Shown: piece after piece, positions 6,452 to 59,589 of the stretch
Numbering within the stretch: the first letter of the stretch is position 1
Layout: the number at the start of each line of letters is the position of its first letter
NCBI RefSeq assembly: GCF_009363255.1
Contig: NZ_CP045318.1
Span: 33,501 to 97,500 of the forward strand
Origin: Roseivivax sp. THAF197b
GTDB taxonomy: Bacteria; Pseudomonadota; Alphaproteobacteria; Rhodobacterales; Rhodobacteraceae
DNA length: 64,000 nucleotides
Reading direction: 5' to 3'
The notes under the pieces: generated by a model
What the model was told of the DNA's origin: nothing
What the model saw: the letters and a program-made list of their open reading frames with translations, nothing else
Database searches by the model: none
Translations under genes and position numbers: made by a program

Positions 6452-8536
6452 TCAGACCAATTCGCCCTCGATCACCCACATCGTGGCCGGAAAGCTCCAC
6501 GGCAATGTCAGCCCGTGGGCCATCAGATAGCCACCGCTCACGGTCATGCTTTCGCTTTTCAACAAGGGGGTGCCCCGCGACAGGGTCGGCGCGTCCTCTC
6601 TGTTCCTCAACGTGATGCGATAAATTGCGTCCCGCGAAAGCCGGGTGAGGCGCAGAGGGCGAGGAACGATCTGCGACGAGGTATCCTGCTTTCCGGCGAA
6701 GATTACGAAGCGCCCGCCGCCCTGTGCCAGATGCTGTTCGGCAAGCACTGCCGGATCCGGGCTGTCGAGACGCAGGATATCGGCTTTGACCATCCAGTCG
6801 CGATTGTCCTTCCACCACTGGGTCACGTCCTTCAGGACCTGGGCCTCCTCTGCCGTCAATTCGCGCGGATCCATCTCGAAGCCCATATGCCGCTGGGCTG
6901 CGACCCAGGCGCGGAAGCGGATGTCGATGGTGCGGCCCGACGTGTGACACACCCGCGGGCCCACGTGGGAGCCGGTGACGGCCATCGGCAGGAAGATTGC
7001 GGCGTTGTGCTGCATCCTCAGCCGCTCGATCGCGTCGTTGCTGTCGGAAAGCCAGACCCGGTGGGTCCTTTGCAGGATGCCGAAGTCGATCCGCGCGCCG
7101 CCCGAAGCACAGCTTTCGATTTCGGTGGCGGGGAAGGCCGCGCGCAGCCGGTCGATCAAGGCGTAGGACCCGCGGGTCTGGGCCGCGTCCGGCATGGGCA
7201 GGACGCGGTTGTGATCCCATTTGACGTAGTCGATGTCATGATCGCCGAGGATCTTGCCCACTCTGTCGAAGAGGAAATCCCGCACCTCCGGCAGCGCCAT
7301 GTCGAGGGCCTTCTGCTGCCGTCCGAGGATCTGGTCCGCGCTGCCAAAGGCCCATTCGGGATGTTTGCGATAGATGCTGCTGTCCGGATTGATCATTTCC
7401 GGCTCGAACCAGATGCCGAAACTCATGCCCAGCCCGTGCACGTGATCGATCAGCGGCCTCAGCCCGTCGGGATATTTGCGCGGATCGACTTCCCAGTCGG
7501 ACAAGGCGCGGGTGTCGTCGTCGCGATTGCCGAACCAGCCGTCGTCGAGCACGAAGCGCTCCGCGCCAAGCTCTGCGGCAATCTCGGCGATCTCCTTGAG
7601 CTCCGCGAGGTCGTGATCGAAATAGACCGCTTCCCAGCAATTGTAGTGCACCGGGCGCGGCCTGTCGGGGAAGGGAAAGTCCACGACCTCGTCACGCAGA
7701 TGGCGCTGGAAGGCTACGGCGCAGCCGTTGATCCCGTCATCGGAATAGACGGCGTAGAGGATGCCCGTCTCGAAGCGGTGCTTGGCGTTGTTCTCCACGC
7801 GGGCCGCATGGCCGAACTGGATCTGGCGTCGCCCGTCGGGCAATTCCTCGGCGACCATGCGGTGGCCGCCCGACCATCCGTAATGGAAGGCGTAGACATC
7901 CCCCGCCGCGTTGGTTGCCCCTCGGCACGGCAGCAGCAGGCCGGGGAAATGCTCGTGCCCGGTGCGCCCGGTGCGGTTCTCGCGATAGCGCATTCCTGGC
8001 GACCAGGGGGCGCGGTTCATCTGGAACTCACCGCACCAGCGGCCGGAGAAGTCGATCATCTCGTCGGCCAGTTGCGGCGCAGGAAAGACCGGTGCGGAGA
8101 GCCAGTGCAAGTGGATGGGGCTGTCGCTTTCCAGCTCGGCCTTGGTCTCGATCACATGGGTCGCCGAGTTGATCGCGAAGGAGGCGGTGTAGCGCAGCCC
8201 GTGGGCCGTATCGCGAAAGATCAGCGAGAGCGCAGTGCCGTCCTGATCCGCGGTATCGAAGCGAAAGTCGGGCAGGATCGGGGTGCCCGACCCGTCTCGC
8301 AGAATGAGCCCTGGCTGGCCTGGGAAGGTCCGCGTCGCCTCCGGGTTGATCGACAGCTCGGGGTTCGTATCGAGCATACCGCCGGTCACATCGAGCTCGT
8401 TCGCCCGGTAGATCGTTTCGAGATCTTCGCCATCGGGCAGTCGCGGCCCCCAATAGACCACTTCCGCAAGGTGGTCGTTCCGGGCACCGAGAACCAGCGA
8501 CTGCCGGGTGTCATCCAAACGCCAGCATCTGATCAC
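6452..8536 (-). CDS. alpha-galactosidase, GH36
   Basis: Retaining glycoside hydrolase releasing galactose from alpha-galactosides such as melibiose or raffinose-type sugars. The 694-residue length is right for bacterial GH36. It has an N-terminal beta-supersandwich, then the barrel with FVLDDGWFG, the nucleophile Asp in KWDHN (about residue 441), the SCASGGARIDFG loop, and the acid/base Asp in WLSDSND (about residue 498). No signal peptide, so it works on imported sugars. The start is GTG at 8536, which overlaps the stop of the upstream permease gene as GTGA; the longer open frame to 8824 is only overlap with that gene. Translational coupling with the transporter fits import followed by intracellular hydrolysis. 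Confidence 0.92.
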   Translation of the reverse strand: MIRCWRLDDTRQSLVLGARNDHLAEVVYWGPRLPDGEDLETIYRANELDVTGGMLDTNPELSINPEATRTFPGQPGLILRDGSGTPILPDFRFDTADQDGTALSLIFRDTAHGLRYTASFAINSATHVIETKAELESDSPIHLHWLSAPVFPAPQLADEMIDFSGRWCGEFQMNRAPWSPGMRYRENRTGRTGHEHFPGLLLPCRGATNAAGDVYAFHYGWSGGHRMVAEELPDGRRQIQFGHAARVENNAKHRFETGILYAVYSDDGINGCAVAFQRHLRDEVVDFPFPDRPRPVHYNCWEAVYFDHDLAELKEIAEIAAELGAERFVLDDGWFGNRDDDTRALSDWEVDPRKYPDGLRPLIDHVHGLGMSFGIWFEPEMINPDSSIYRKHPEWAFGSADQILGRQQKALDMALPEVRDFLFDRVGKILGDHDIDYVKWDHNRVLPMPDAAQTRGSYALIDRLRAAFPATEIESCASGGARIDFGILQRTHRVWLSDSNDAIERLRMQHNAAIFLPMAVTGSHVGPRVCHTSGRTIDIRFRAWVAAQRHMGFEMDPRELTAEEAQVLKDVTQWWKDNRDWMVKADILRLDSPDPAVLAEQHLAQGGGRFVIFAGKQDTSSQIVPRPLRLTRLSRDAIYRITLRNREDAPTLSRGTPLLKSESMTVSGGYLMAHGLTLPWSFPATMWVIEGELV

Positions 8537-54094: not shown

Positions 54095-54784
54095 TCAGGG
54101 CAGCTCGGCCAGGATCTCGCGGGCGGCACCGCGCGGATCGCTGGCCTGCCAGACGGGGCGTCCGACGACGATGTGATCCGCACCCGCTTCAACCGCATGG
54201 GCAGGCGTCGCGACGCGCTTCTGATCTCCAAGCGCCGCACCTGCGGGGCGCACGCCGGGGGTGACGATCAGGCGATCCTGCGCCACGTTCAGGCCCCGGA
54301 TCCGCGCCGCTTCCTGCGGGGAGGCGATGACGCCATCCGCACCGGCTTCAAGTGCGCGGCCCGCCCGCTCCTCGACCATGTCGGCGACGGCACCGGGCTG
54401 CATCATGCAATCGTCAAGATCGGCGCGATCCAGCGATGTCAGGATCGTGACGGCCAGGATCTTCGTGTCCGTGCCAGCCGCACCCTCCATGGCGGCGCGC
54501 ACCACATGCGGATCGCCATGCACGGTCAGGAAATCGATATTGAACTGCGCGAGGCCCCGGACCGCGTTCTCGACCGTCTGGCCGATATCGAACAGCTTCA
54601 TGTCGAGGAAAATGCGCTTGCCGTGCTCCTGCTTCAGCTCGTTCGCGAGAGCCAGCCCGCCGCCCGTCAGCATTCCGAGACCGATCTTGTAGAACCCCAC
54701 CTGAGGGCCAATCGTCTGGGCCAGTTTGAGACCGGTCAGCGCATCGGCGACATCAAGGGCAACGATCAGGCGGTCATCGGACAT
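54095..54784 (-). CDS. pyrF: orotidine 5'-phosphate decarboxylase
   Basis: Last step of UMP synthesis, cytoplasmic dimer. The 229-residue barrel has the catalytic ALDV at residues 9-12, the FLDMKLFDIGQTV signature with the Lys-Asp pair near residue 61, IVTPGVRP and the C-terminal VVGRPVW. The ATG at 54784 follows AAGG; the frame extends further only by overlap with the next gene region. Its promoter region faces that of the acidic protein gene (138 bp between starts). Confidence 0.95.
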   Translation of the reverse strand: MSDDRLIVALDVADALTGLKLAQTIGPQVGFYKIGLGMLTGGGLALANELKQEHGKRIFLDMKLFDIGQTVENAVRGLAQFNIDFLTVHGDPHVVRAAMEGAAGTDTKILAVTILTSLDRADLDDCMMQPGAVADMVEERAGRALEAGADGVIASPQEAARIRGLNVAQDRLIVTPGVRPAGAALGDQKRVATPAHAVEAGADHIVVGRPVWQASDPRGAAREILAELP

Positions 54785-54922
54785 GGGCAGGGGCCTTTTT
54801 GCGGTTGTTTGGCCCCGGGTAATCGGAATTGGGAACAGAATCCAGCCAAGCTCGTTCAGCTTAGATATGTCTGCCAAGATAACCCAAAAATACCGATTAA
54901 TCACAACGCAGGGAGAGTGACG

Positions 54923-56788
54923 ATGTCCGATGACAAATCCGCCGGTAAAACCGATAGCGGACCCGTAGAGCGGTCCACCAAGGGCGAAGCAGCCAAGAAA
55001 CCGTCGAACGCGGCGCCGTACGTACTGGGCGGCGCGGCGATCGCGATCGTGGCCGTTGCGCTGACCGTTGCGCAAACCCGCGATGGTGGCGGGGAGGCCG
55101 AGGGCGGCGAAACCCAGATGGCCGCGGCGGAGACATCGTCAGAGGGCGAAAGCGGTGATGCGATGGCAGCATCGTCCGAGACGTCCGATGAGAACACTGC
55201 CGAAGGTGGTGACAGCGGTTCGGAAGACGGCGCAGACGCAGCGGCGGACGGCGAGAGCGCAGACGCAGCAGAGGGCGCGGAAGACAGCGCCGAGAGCGGC
55301 TCCTCTGAAGGCGAGACGCCGGGCGAAGACTCCGGTTCTGCGGATGCCGAAGGCGAAGCTTCCGCCGAATCCGAGGGCGCCGCTGCCGAGGCTGATGGCG
55401 AAGCAGATGCTGCCGCCGCGTCGGAAGGCACGGGCAGCGCCGAGGGCGGCAATGAGGCTCCCGCTGAGGGCGAAGCTGCTGAGTCGTCCGATAGCGCGGC
55501 CAGCGAAGGCGAGACCGGTGCCGAAGCCCCCGAGGGCGAAAGTGAAGCCGAAACCGAGACGGCCGAAGGCGAGGCAGCGGATGTGTCCGAAGCGTCCGGC
55601 AACAGCTCCGACAGCGAACAAGCCGCATCGAGCGCTGAGCAGGAAAACGCAGCCTCGGACGGCGCGGCGGAAGATGCCGGGAGCACCGAAGGCGACACCG
55701 CCGAGGGTGGCGATACCGCTGAGGGCACGGAGAGTGCAGAGGGCGGCGAAGGCGAAACGGCCCGTGCAGCCTCCTCGGAAGGTGAAGCTGCCGAAGGCGA
55801 TGGTGAAGCTGACAGCGGCGCAAGCGACGGCGAGTCCGCCGAGGCAGATGCCGCGAGCGACACGGCTGATGAAAGCGCATCCGCCGATGCAGGCAACACG
55901 GATGCCGCCGAAGCCGAAGAGGGTGCAGCAGAAGGGTCCTCGGACAGCAGCGACAGCGCTGAGGCAACCGAAGCGGAAGACGGCAACACCGATGCAGCCT
56001 CGCCCGAAAGCGGCGAAAGCAACGGTGACGCGGCCGAAAGCGAAAGCGCTGACGCGGAAGGCAGCGGCGCGGAAGCCGAGGACAGCGCGGACGCTACCGC
56101 ATCGGGTGACAGCGCAAGCGGTGACGAAGCGGCCGCCGAGGCATCTTCGGATAGCAGCGACACTGCCGAGGCCGAAACCTCCGAGACTGCATCGAGCGAC
56201 AGCGACGCCTCGGACAGCGGATCGGAAGACGGCGAAACCGCCGCGTCTGGCGAAACCGATACGGCCAATGCGGACGGCGAAGGCGACACCTCGGAAAGCG
56301 CTCAGGCCTCCGACGCCGCCAGCGCATCGGGTGACAGCGCGGAAAGCTCCGAGCAATCGGACGCAGGCGATACCGCCGATGCGGGCGCTTCCGAGGAAAG
56401 CGGTGACGCGTCCGAGAGCGAAAGCGCTGATGCTTCCTCCGAAGGTGACGCTTCGGGATCGGATGACGCGGAAAACGCGGAAAGCACCTCCGAGACCGAG
56501 ACTGCCAGCTCCGGCAATGGCGACGCGTCGGACAGCGGTGAAAGCGACGCGATGGCAGCCGAGCTCAGCAATGAGCAGATCGACGAGCTGACCGAAATCG
56601 CGACGCAAGCCGCGCAAGCCGCGCGTGCCGCACAGCAAGCGGCGGATGACGCCCGTGCTTCGGCCTCCGAAATCCAGTCTGCCGCGGATGAAGCGGCCGC
56701 AGCAGCCCAGGAGGCTGCAGATGCTGCCGCGCAAGCCTTCGAGCGGCTGCGCGAGGCGAGCGAGGCCATCGGTTCGTCCGACGACTGA
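54923..56788 (+). CDS. membrane-anchored, extremely acidic low-complexity protein with C-terminal helical tail
   Basis: A 621-residue protein of unknown function. Residues 1-30 are Lys-rich and cytoplasmic in character, residues 31-50 form one membrane helix (PYVLGGAAIAIVAVALTVA), and residues 54 to about 550 are almost entirely Ala, Glu, Ser, Gly, Asp and Thr. No Lys occurs after residue 26 and no Cys, His or Trp is seen anywhere. The last ~70 residues change to an Ala-rich amphipathic helix (LTEIATQAAQAARAAQQAAD, and on to FERLREASEAIG), likely a coiled coil. Positive-inside rule puts the acidic part in the periplasm. GGGAGAG lies 5 bases before the ATG. It sits between pyrF and clpB with its own terminator. 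Long open frames on other strands here are a by-product of stop-poor codons. Confidence 0.85.
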   Translation: MSDDKSAGKTDSGPVERSTKGEAAKKPSNAAPYVLGGAAIAIVAVALTVAQTRDGGGEAEGGETQMAAAETSSEGESGDAMAASSETSDENTAEGGDSGSEDGADAAADGESADAAEGAEDSAESGSSEGETPGEDSGSADAEGEASAESEGAAAEADGEADAAAASEGTGSAEGGNEAPAEGEAAESSDSAASEGETGAEAPEGESEAETETAEGEAADVSEASGNSSDSEQAASSAEQENAASDGAAEDAGSTEGDTAEGGDTAEGTESAEGGEGETARAASSEGEAAEGDGEADSGASDGESAEADAASDTADESASADAGNTDAAEAEEGAAEGSSDSSDSAEATEAEDGNTDAASPESGESNGDAAESESADAEGSGAEAEDSADATASGDSASGDEAAAEASSDSSDTAEAETSETASSDSDASDSGSEDGETAASGETDTANADGEGDTSESAQASDAASASGDSAESSEQSDAGDTADAGASEESGDASESESADASSEGDASGSDDAENAESTSETETASSGNGDASDSGESDAMAAELSNEQIDELTEIATQAAQAARAAQQAADDARASASEIQSAADEAAAAAQEAADAAAQAFERLREASEAIGSSDD

Positions 56789-56822
56789 CGCGACCGTCGG
56801 ACGTCATCAAGACCTCATGAAA

Positions 56823-56851
56823 GGGCATCCCTCCGGGGGTGCCCTTTTTTT
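56823..56851 (+). terminator. intrinsic terminator of the acidic protein gene
   Basis: GGGCATCCC pairs with GGGGTGCCC (one G-T wobble) around a short loop and is followed by seven T residues, 35 bp after the stop. Confidence 0.9.
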
Positions 56852-56862
56852 GGTGTTGCATT

Positions 56863-56888
56863 CTTGCATCATGAAAACGGACCCCCAT
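56863..56888 (+). promoter_or_regulatory. sigma-32 (RpoH) heat-shock promoter of clpB
   Basis: CTTGCA at 56863-56868, a 14-bp spacer, and CCCCAT at 56883-56888 followed by TTTAT match the RpoH consensus (CTTGAA, 13-17 bp, CCCCAT-T-A) with one mismatch in the -35. It sits right after the upstream terminator and 83 bp before the clpB ATG. Confidence 0.8.
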
Positions 56889-56970
56889 TTTATCCCAGAG
56901 GCTCCGCAACATGATGTGCCGCCTGTCGGGCATCGCAACGGACGGAGCGCTTGTAAAAAGGAGAGATCCA

Positions 56971-59589
56971 ATGAACTTGGAGAAGTTCACGGAACGCGCA
57001 CGAGGGTTCATTCAAGCCGCGCAGACCATCGCGATGCGCGAAAGCCATCAGCGCATCACGCCCGAACACCTGCTGAAAGCCCTGCTCGACGATGAAGAGG
57101 GGCTGGCCACCAACCTGATCACTCGCGCGGGCGGTGCACCGGATCGCGTGCGCCAGGCGCTGGAGCTGTCGATTGGAAAGCTGCCGAAAGTGTCGGGCGA
57201 TGCGGGGCAGGTTTTCCTCGATTCTGCCACGGGCCGGGTTCTGGACGAGGCCGAGAAGGTCGCGACCAAGGCGGGCGACAGCTTTGTGCCGGTCGAACGC
57301 ATTCTGACGGCACTCGCCATGGTGAAAAGCCCGGCGAAGGACGCGCTGGGCGCCGGTGCGGTGACCGCGCAGAACCTCAACGCCGCGATCAACGACATCC
57401 GCAAGGGCCGGACCGCCGACAGCGCCAATGCCGAGGAAGGCTATGACGCGCTGAAGAAATACGCGCTCGACCTCACGGCACGGGCCGAAGAGGGCAAGAT
57501 TGACCCGATCATCGGCCGCGACGAGGAAATCCGCCGCGCCATGCAGGTCCTGTCGCGCCGCACGAAGAACAACCCCGTTCTGATCGGTGAACCGGGCGTC
57601 GGTAAAACGGCGATCGCCGAAGGTCTCGCCCTGCGGATCGTCGACGGCGATGTGCCCGAAAGCCTGCGCAACAAGCGGCTCATGGCGCTCGATATGGGTG
57701 CGCTCATTGCCGGTGCGAAATATCGCGGTGAGTTCGAAGAACGGTTGAAGGCCATCCTGAAGGAGGTCGAGGCCGCTGCGGGCGAAATCATTCTCTTCAT
57801 CGACGAGATGCACACGCTTGTCGGCGCCGGGAAGGCCGATGGCGCGATGGACGCGTCGAACCTTCTGAAGCCTGCGCTTGCGCGCGGGGAGCTGCACTGC
57901 ATCGGTGCGACCACGCTCGACGAATACCGCAAGCACGTGGAGAAAGACGCAGCCCTGGCTCGCCGCTTCCAGCCACTGATGGTGCAGGAGCCGACGGAAG
58001 AGGACACCGTGTCAATCCTGCGCGGCATCAAGGAAAAGTACGAGCTGCACCACGGCGTGCGCATCTCCGACAGCGCGCTCGTCGCGGCGGCGCAATTGTC
58101 GAACCGCTACATCACCGACCGCTTCCTGCCGGACAAGGCCATCGACCTCATGGACGAGGCCGCGTCGCGTCTGCGCATGGCGGTGGACAGCAAACCCGAA
58201 GAGCTCGACCAGCTCGACCGGCAGATCCTGCAATTGCAGATCGAGCAGGAGGCGCTGAAGAAGGAAGACGATGCCGCCTCCAAGGACCGGCTGGCCAAGC
58301 TTGAAAAGGACCTCGCCGATCTTCAGGAGGAATCCGCGCAGATGACTGCCAAGTGGCAGTCCGAGCGGGACAAGCTCTCGAAGTCGCGCGAGCTGAAGGA
58401 ACAGCTGGACCGGGCGCGGGCGGATCTCGATATCGCCAAGCGGCATGGTGACCTGGCAAAGGCCGGTGAGCTGTCCTACGGCGTGATCCCCGGCCTCGAG
58501 AAGGAGCTGGCGGAAGCCGAAGGTGCCGAGGACGGGGATGTCATGGTCGAAGAAGCCGTGCGGCCGGAGCAGATCGCCCAGGTGGTCGAACGCTGGACCG
58601 GTATCCCCACCTCCAAGATGCTGGAAGGTGAGCGCGAAAAGCTTCTGCGCATGGAAGATGGCCTGCACAAGCGTGTCATCGGTCAGGATCAGGCGGTGCG
58701 CGCCGTGGCCAATGCGGTTCGTCGGGCGCGTGCGGGGCTCAATGACGAGAACCGTCCGCTGGGATCGTTCCTGTTCCTCGGGCCCACAGGTGTCGGCAAG
58801 ACCGAGCTGACCAAGGCCGTCGCGGAGTTCCTGTTCGACGACGACAACGCGATGGTGCGCATCGACATGTCGGAGTTCATGGAAAAGCACGCGGTCGCCC
58901 GTCTGATCGGCGCGCCTCCGGGCTATGTGGGCTACGACGAAGGCGGTGTTCTGACCGAAGCCGTGCGGCGGCGTCCTTATCAGGTCGTGCTGTTCGACGA
59001 GGTCGAGAAGGCGCATCCGGACGTGTTCAACGTTCTGTTGCAGGTGCTCGATGACGGCGTGTTGACCGATGGTCAGGGCCGCACCGTGGACTTCAAGCAG
59101 ACGCTGATCGTGCTGACGTCGAACCTCGGCTCGCAGGCGCTGAGCCAGTTGCCCGAAGGGTCGGATAGCGGCAAGGCCAAGCAGGACGTGATGGATGCGG
59201 TGCGGGCCCATTTCCGCCCCGAATTCCTCAATCGTCTGGACGAGACGATCATCTTCGACCGCCTCAAGCGCGAGGACATGTCGGGGATCGTGGACATCCA
59301 GCTTGGCAGATTGATCAAACGGCTTGCGAGCCGGAAGATCGGGCTCGAGCTCGACGAGGCTGCGAAGTCCTGGCTTGCCGATGAGGGATACGATCCGGTC
59401 TTCGGTGCGCGTCCGCTCAAGCGCGTGATCCAGCGCGCCTTGCAGGATCCCCTCGCGGAGATGCTGCTCGCGGGCGATATCGGGGACGGCACGACCATTC
59501 CCGTCAGCGCCGGTGCGGATGGCCTGATCATCGGCGACAAGATCGCCGCGTCGAACCGACCGCGCCCGGATGATGCCGTCGTGCACTGA
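56971..59589 (+). CDS. clpB: ATP-dependent protein disaggregase ClpB
   Basis: Hexameric AAA+ chaperone that, with DnaK, pulls apart aggregated proteins after heat stress. The 872-residue length is normal. Clp N-domain (1-150), AAA-1 with Walker A GEPGVGKT (206-213) and Walker B ILFIDEMH, the M-domain coiled coil (about 400-530), AAA-2 with GPTGVGKT (604-611), [11 protein letters not shown] and the C-terminal [21 protein letters not shown] precedes the ATG. Control by the RpoH-type promoter is very likely. Confidence 0.96.

Follow-up and report, generated by a model that had tools for sequence, protein, structure and literature searches.

The window (the whole 64,000-nucleotide stretch that was analysed, from Roseivivax sp. 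THAF197b) contains between pyrF and clpB a real gene, here termed gene X, that encodes a membrane-anchored acidic protein and that is preceded, in the window and in each ortholog, by an EcfG-type (general stress response) promoter motif (Table 1). The motif is new here, having been missed in the first-pass annotation of this DNA, and in our reading of the sequence it is the strongest clue to function. We tentatively propose, with somewhat less than even confidence, that the product of gene X is a polyanion induced by stress and tethered to the inner membrane, which extends into the periplasm and self-associates through its C-terminal tail. That the open frame is beyond chance follows from conservation of both ends of the protein in orthologs and from dN values lower than dS values in all 14 comparisons (seven pairs for each end; dN 0.18-0.57, dS 0.79-2.74, with several dS values near saturation). 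By these substitution rates, the ends are under purifying selection.

Table 1. Features of the gene X locus, with positions in the window.
Feature	Position	Strand	Remark
pyrF, divergent upstream neighbour, syntenic anchor	54095..54784	-	229-aa frame
EcfG-type (general stress response) promoter motif GGAAC-N16-CGTT	54832..54856	+	66 nt before gene X ATG
Ribosome binding site AGGGAGAG	54910..54917	+	5 nt before gene X ATG, by reading
Gene X, membrane-anchored acidic protein	54923..56788	+	open frame, 621 aa
Predicted transmembrane helix, residues 33-52 of X	55019..55078	+	helix in AlphaFold2 model
Disordered polyanionic linker, residues 53-540 of X	55079..56542	+	pLDDT mostly <50
Alanine-rich heptad tail, residues 541-621 of X	56543..56785	+	one helix in model
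Intrinsic-terminator-like hairpin and T run	56819..56848	+	hairpin scan; by eye in relatives
Sigma32-like promoter CTTGCA...CCCCAT before clpB	56863..56888	+	in 7/10 loci, at most 120 nt past X stop
clpB, downstream syntenic anchor	56971..59589	+	start with ribosome site AAGGAGAG, not 56911

The protein has the composition that the first-pass annotation had attributed to it, and recomputation returned the same coordinates, frame, length, single hydrophobic helix, and low-complexity region. Within the linker (488 residues, with bounds placed by eye, as for the linkers of orthologs), Ala, Glu, Ser, Gly, Asp, and Thr account for 464 residues (95%), matching the roughly 500 residues made of little else that had been described. 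The linker has no Lys, two Arg, and a net charge of -151; Phe, Tyr, Ile, Leu, Met, and Val together contribute three residues. The charge is evenly distributed, at -17 to -21 in every one of eight 61-residue blocks. K26 is the last Lys in the sequence, and neither the linker nor the rest of the protein has any Cys, His, or Trp, again as described. An AlphaFold2 model (monomer, three-row alignment) places one helix at residues 38-53 and a second, of 68 residues and with pLDDT of ~97, at residues 550-617; the linker between them is unstructured, and 507 of the 621 residues have pLDDT <50.

The suggestion that the protein belongs to no described family also held: a search of the whole protein against Pfam and NCBIfam returned no family at E up to 1, and the ends of the protein match no family above the curated cut-off. 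Three protein database searches, one each with the entire sequence, the N-terminal 75 residues, and an alignment of 11 rows, returned no match, two of the three having scored the best 7,993-7,995 candidates by shared words; low-complexity words swamp those candidate lists, so that the searches have no bearing on rarity, and homologs were taken from genome searches. The layout of the protein was not found described in the literature, among the titles and abstract openings of the matches listed.

Genome searches identify orthologs of gene X between pyrF and clpB in eight of nine Roseivivax genomes (counting that of the window) and in a further three (G112, G301, and G303) from two other genera. 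Gene X has the same neighbours, pyrF (orotidine 5'-phosphate decarboxylase) upstream and clpB downstream, in all 10 relatives as in the window. Seven Roseivivax relatives have a common layout, comprising a Met-(Ala/Ser/Thr)-Asp start, a helix like SVAPITLGAAVVVALAIAITLNL, an acidic chain, and a tail like AFERLREASEAI. When the end pieces were searched separately in the nine Roseivivax genomes, own genome included, the N-terminal piece was matched in eight and the C-terminal piece in five. The first-pass annotation had held that absence or frameshifts in all close relatives would speak against the gene; the gene is present and open in eight of nine congeners. A clpB match in another genome (G004:C17:398489-401155, locus L025) has one TGA inside the aligned frame; this may be no more than an extended N-terminus in the query (for the window, the frame from 56911 was used).

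The ninth congener, Roseivivax lentus, is the nearest relative by ClpB (95%) and has no gene X. Its pyrF and clpB are ~154 nt apart, and the gap, aligned with the window, is identical at 29 of 30 positions at the pyrF start and at 122 of 141 positions on the clpB side, leaving no room for the gene; elsewhere in the genome the best match to the N-terminal profile has E 0.42. Judged by these alignments, the absence is most simply explained by loss. In a draw of 296 genomes of the family, searched at E 0.001, the N-terminal and C-terminal profiles each matched at least four genomes, among which the true carriers were own genome, G112, and G301 for the N-terminal profile and own genome and G301 for the C-terminal profile. 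The remaining matches, judged by eye, were a transporter-like frame (G132, N-terminal profile), a phage tail tape-measure-like frame (G208, C-terminal profile), and an unrelated frame (G181, C-terminal profile), and were not counted. Gene X is thus detected in at least three of the 296 drawn genomes, with the best 20 candidates per genome scored, such that distant members can be missed; G303, of the same genus as G301, carries it too. Since R. lentus retains NepR yet is without gene X, and since the gene is detected in so few of the 296 drawn genomes (at least three), gene X is, as far as gene content can tell, dispensable. In a ClpB tree (FastTree; 83 rows, 89 before six loci without a long enough ClpB were dropped; L044, L045, and L089 omitted as doubles of L030, L014, and L041), long X forms two separate groups, Roseivivax on the one hand and G112/G301/G303 on the other, and non-carriers are found both between these groups and within them. 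By this distribution, the gene would either be ancient, with frequent losses, or have been transferred into this same site by recombination.

The sequence GGAAC-N16/17-(C/T)GTT is present upstream of gene X in 11 of 11 orthologs (10 with CGTT, one with TGTT), 32-66 nt before the ATG, in upstream DNA that is otherwise poorly alignable among orthologs. Excerpts of PMC7083833 describe GGAAC-N16-CGTT as the conventional promoter of the general stress response, with TGTT, CATT, and GGTT as the commonest other -10 boxes; an excerpt of PMC3892343 gives the same motif for Rhizobium etli. NepR is found by Pfam in nine of nine Roseivivax genomes, own genome having it as a 60-aa frame without an NCBIfam match. 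In own genome, nepR lies between phyR (350 bits; cut-off 240) and the gene for an ECF sigma factor (316 bits; cut-off 270), which we take as EcfG by its place, the NCBIfam model being named merely 'RNA polymerase sigma factor'; the kinase next in the locus resembles PhyK far below cut-off (190 vs. 750 bits). The strict motif, with CGTT, lies just upstream of nepR in seven of nine loci and is absent from own locus and that of R. lentus; in own genome, GGAAC-N16/17-GGTT is present on both strands between nepR and phyR. From these sequence data we infer EcfG control of gene X.

The strict motif is not enriched genome-wide: it has 49 matches, below the 74 of a reversed control pattern. A lone match therefore means little; what carries weight is that the motif is conserved and that it co-occurs with the gene. 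The genome counts are what would be expected if the sites upstream of gene X were chance occurrences or served some other use, with gene X expressed constitutively or driven by heat shock together with clpB. We consider that explanation quite improbable, because a chance motif would not be expected to recur in every one of the 11 orthologs, 32-66 nt before the ATG and in DNA that otherwise aligns poorly, or to co-occur with gene presence across 77 pyrF-clpB gaps (below), and because clpB has a promoter-like site of its own past the terminator-like hairpin of gene X. The latter site has the sequence CTTGCA...CCCCAT, which we take to be the sigma32 consensus. Since clpB thus has its own heat-shock-type promoter, downstream of the hairpin, gene X and clpB are probably not an operon. 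The ribosome binding site and the terminator that the first-pass annotation had assigned to gene X are both represented, the latter by a terminator-like hairpin. The terminator scan alone is weak, having returned three sites in the region vs. 3.1 expected by chance; a GC hairpin with a T run is seen by eye 3' of gene X also in the other loci inspected. Rfam, searched at the gathering threshold, has no match in 54780-57000.

The linkers of the orthologs differ in sequence and agree in charge. The 11 linkers, at 277-495 residues (the comparison of lengths among relatives that the first-pass annotation had proposed), are not alignable, and their net charge per residue lies between -0.20 and -0.31; together they comprise 4,308 residues with one Lys, five Arg, and no Cys, His, or Trp. 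On these counts the linkers keep charge, not sequence, and a chain that keeps its negative charge while nearly excluding Lys, Arg, aromatics, and Cys is, by composition, built neither for folding nor for binding to itself through opposite charges. Should charge indeed be kept while sequence drifts, gene X would be a clear example of a bacterial envelope protein in which selection acts on composition and not on sequence. In four of nine relatives examined, the gene contains exact DNA repeats of 35-74 nt (38 nt in L016, 74 nt in L017, 41 nt in L019, and 35 nt in L020), which indicates that the linker grows by duplication in some lineages. The DNA of gene X in the window is not repetitive, with a longest exact repeat of 18 nt and, by TRF, one 18-nt unit present 1.9 times; the proposal that the length could change by slippage of repetitive codons is therefore unsupported for this copy.

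The linker might alternatively be weakly constrained low-complexity filler that drifts under a composition bias, with only the short ends mattering, or nothing. Such drift would account for a linker that is not alignable, for the exact repeats in four of nine relatives, and for the absence of the gene from R. lentus. We regard it as improbable, since filler would have had to remain at one Lys, five Arg, and no Cys, His, or Trp over 4,308 residues in two separate clades, and since the ends are under purifying selection and the promoter is kept.

The placement of the chain is suggested by charges flanking the helix. Six Lys or Arg are present within residues 1-32, and behind the helix a single Arg (R53) is followed by acid; 10 orthologs have two to six Lys or Arg in residues 1-32 and zero or one in residues 45-66, and in two of the 10 a single Arg lies just behind the helix. 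According to the positive-inside rule, Lys and Arg before the helix and acid after it predict an N-in orientation and place the chain in the periplasm. With the opposite, N-out, orientation the acidic chain would be cytoplasmic and might mimic nucleic acid or sequester basic proteins, and Asp/Glu-rich chains are indeed known from DNA mimics. We consider this very improbable: the charge distribution is the reverse of what N-out insertion needs, the two orthologs with an Arg behind the helix notwithstanding, and the charge of the protein is spread evenly, not displayed on a folded surface. Nucleic-acid mimicry, one of the functions raised in the first-pass annotation, is accordingly unlikely if, as the charge distribution implies, the chain is periplasmic. 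What stands of that overall interpretation is a single-pass, lysine-free polyanion with a helical tail; slippage is not evident in this copy.

To the Ala-rich helical tail of the first-pass annotation, which the model reproduces, we add a heptad alanine pattern and a sub-threshold likeness to the Alanine_zipper family. In the ortholog alignment, the tail has invariant alanines at heptad spacing and near-invariant residues E607 and L609. In the eight Roseivivax tails, Ala, Ile, Leu, Met, Val, and Phe occupy 78-91% of heptad positions a and d vs. 31-40% of other positions, with permutation p values from 0 of 2000 (the window's tail) up to 0.022. Outside Roseivivax the pattern is weaker (75-81% at a and d vs. 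40-44%; p = 0.038 for L039, 0.17 for L041, and 0.13 for L131); overall, the heptad alanine pattern is clear in nine of 11 orthologs. The tail looks built for pairing with copies of itself, at least in Roseivivax; tail self-association is least supported in the genus of L041 and L131, where the heptad is not significant.

Comparison with known families yields a likeness, as judged from scores, not proof of descent. With the Pfam model PF11839 (Alanine_zipper), the window's tail scores 15.2 bits, below the curated cut-off of 23.1, and the full protein has no match. PF11839 is the sole family seen in eight of eight Roseivivax tails (best E 6e-4); it is also seen in five of eight reversed tails (best E 0.02) and in none of eight shuffled tails. 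Run over the nine Roseivivax genomes, the model matched gene X in one (G002, E 0.01) and three other frames (G001, G006, and G008), one of them above cut-off; other frames thus score as well as or better than gene X. A PDB search with a sequence profile of the tail returned weak matches, several of them to Ala-rich helices (best E 0.037), and a Foldseek search with the tail returned no match, as expected for one helix. In engineered Lpp, according to an excerpt of PMC4137666, lengthened alanine zippers lose stability, which counts against the reading of the tail as a bundle.

The main rival to self-association is a long-reach tether, in which the polyanionic chain would be no more than a flexible leash and the conserved tail would dock on a specific partner at the wall or at the outer membrane, much as TolA does or like an Lpp anchored in the inner membrane instead. 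A docking tail would be expected to be better conserved than the linker, as is observed (invariant alanines, near-invariant E607 and L609), and a leash would leave linker length free to vary; the weak heptad in L041 and L131 also fits. We nonetheless consider the tether unlikely, though with a substantial residual chance: the tail offers little beyond an alanine face flanked by acidic and polar residues, a design better suited to self-association, a leash has no need of near-exclusion of Lys and Arg over 4,308 linker residues, and there is no match to a TolA-type family in Pfam or NCBIfam.

In the self-associating, tethered-polyanion reading that we prefer, we infer the regulation, topology, self-association, and function of gene X as follows. 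Upon stress, PhyR would release EcfG from NepR, and EcfG would transcribe gene X from GGAAC-N16-CGTT. The product would be inserted N-in into the inner membrane, and its chain, which in orthologs measures 277-495 residues and carries one net negative charge for every three to five of them, would reach into the periplasm as a disordered polyelectrolyte. The alanine zipper at the C-terminus would bundle two or more chains, yielding a tethered polyanionic brush. Under osmotic or heat-type stress, this brush would increase the fixed negative charge, retain cations and water, and keep the inner membrane at a distance from the wall and outer membrane. If true, this would place a gene-encoded, protein-made periplasmic polyelectrolyte beside the osmoregulated periplasmic glucans. 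Substitution of gene X for those glucans was considered and rejected: mdoG (PF04349) is present in nine of nine Roseivivax genomes, so that gene X would add to the glucans, not replace them.

The proposed protein resembles two known envelope systems in part. Like the alanine-zipper or Lpp-type lipoproteins (PF11839; E. coli Lpp, Licanantase), it has an Ala-rich heptad helix in the envelope; unlike them, it has no Cys and hence no lipobox, is anchored by an N-terminal helix, and has a 277-495-residue polyanion ahead of the tail. Lpp carries a C-terminal Lys, and the gene X product does not. TolA/TonB-type spacers have an inner-membrane anchor, a long periplasmic stretch, and a C-terminal element, all with counterparts here; unlike those spacers, the gene X product has no family match, is not encoded in a tol-pal cluster (its flanks being pyrF and clpB), has a disordered polyanionic linker, and has no folded C-terminal domain in the model. 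With the EcfG regulon genes of Alphaproteobacteria, gene X shares GGAAC-N16/17-CGTT at a distance within the range given in excerpts of PMC6599016, where hypothetical and membrane proteins are among EcfG targets; those excerpts include no target with the layout of gene X, which is known here as a candidate from the motif. In Sphingomonas melonis Fr1, ~40% of EcfG-dependent genes have no assignable function (excerpts of PMC6599016). Gene X would offer one candidate EcfG-type gene whose physical role, fixed periplasmic charge, is concrete and testable, and which comes with a conserved promoter motif and with a congener, R. lentus, that is without the gene.

To compare pyrF-clpB gaps more broadly we used 80 named pyrF loci, 77 of which have clpB nearby in divergent orientation. 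A gap gene was defined as a frame of at least 70 aa directed toward clpB with an early hydrophobic segment and an acidic remainder, a rule written after the candidates had been seen; variant -10 boxes were admitted after a first look, per PMC7083833. A membrane-anchored acidic gene is present in eight of 77 gaps: two are gene X (R. halotolerans and Heliomarina) and six are shorter. An EcfG-type motif in matching direction is present in seven of the eight gaps with an acidic gene (all but L102) vs. two of the 69 without (Fisher one-sided 1.2e-7), where L086 and L087, both within the 69, are one contig stretch under two records. The strict CGTT motif alone is present in five of eight vs. zero of 69 (Fisher 2.8e-6). 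In a tree-aware test, the well-supported branches of the ClpB tree yield six independent pairs; in five or six of these the motif goes with the gene, and in none does it go the opposite way (p 0.031-0.0625, median 0.031). Strict GGAAC-N16/17-CGTT sites that face pyrF are present in gaps L054, L055, L056, L071, L077, L093, and L112, 87-156 nt from the clpB end, and in L045 a strict site facing pyrF lies at the gene X motif itself.

The shorter gap proteins (Salipiger, Marivita, Palleronia, Loktanella, and Nereida) are like the gene X product in position, orientation, N-terminal helix, and an acidic chain without Lys after residue 60, and five of the six have the EcfG-type motif. They differ in length (100-262 aa) and in that none is among the best 25 matches of the tail profile. 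With the N-terminal profile, run over 9,047 frames, three of the six rank 4th to 6th (E 0.023, 0.082, and 1.3), behind the true orthologs, one ranks 22nd, and two lie outside the top 25. They are candidate homologs of gene X, and common descent is suggested by these likenesses. From the gap comparison, membrane-anchored acidic proteins with stress promoters seem to form a class that resides at the pyrF-clpB site, and gene X would be the long zipper form of this class. The broader proposal, that this is an unrecognised class of EcfG-driven, inner-membrane-tethered periplasmic polyanions of Rhodobacteraceae that alter periplasmic fixed charge and hydration on stress, with alanine-zipper bundles in gene X, is one that we put forward as speculative and, taken whole, unlikely. 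Gaps L082 and L117 (Marivita) and L112 (Nereida) each have two short membrane-anchored acidic frames, one behind the other, and the site may hold tandem genes. The gap proteins of L088 and L102 (Palleronia and Loktanella) have in common a C-terminal PTPSGP motif.
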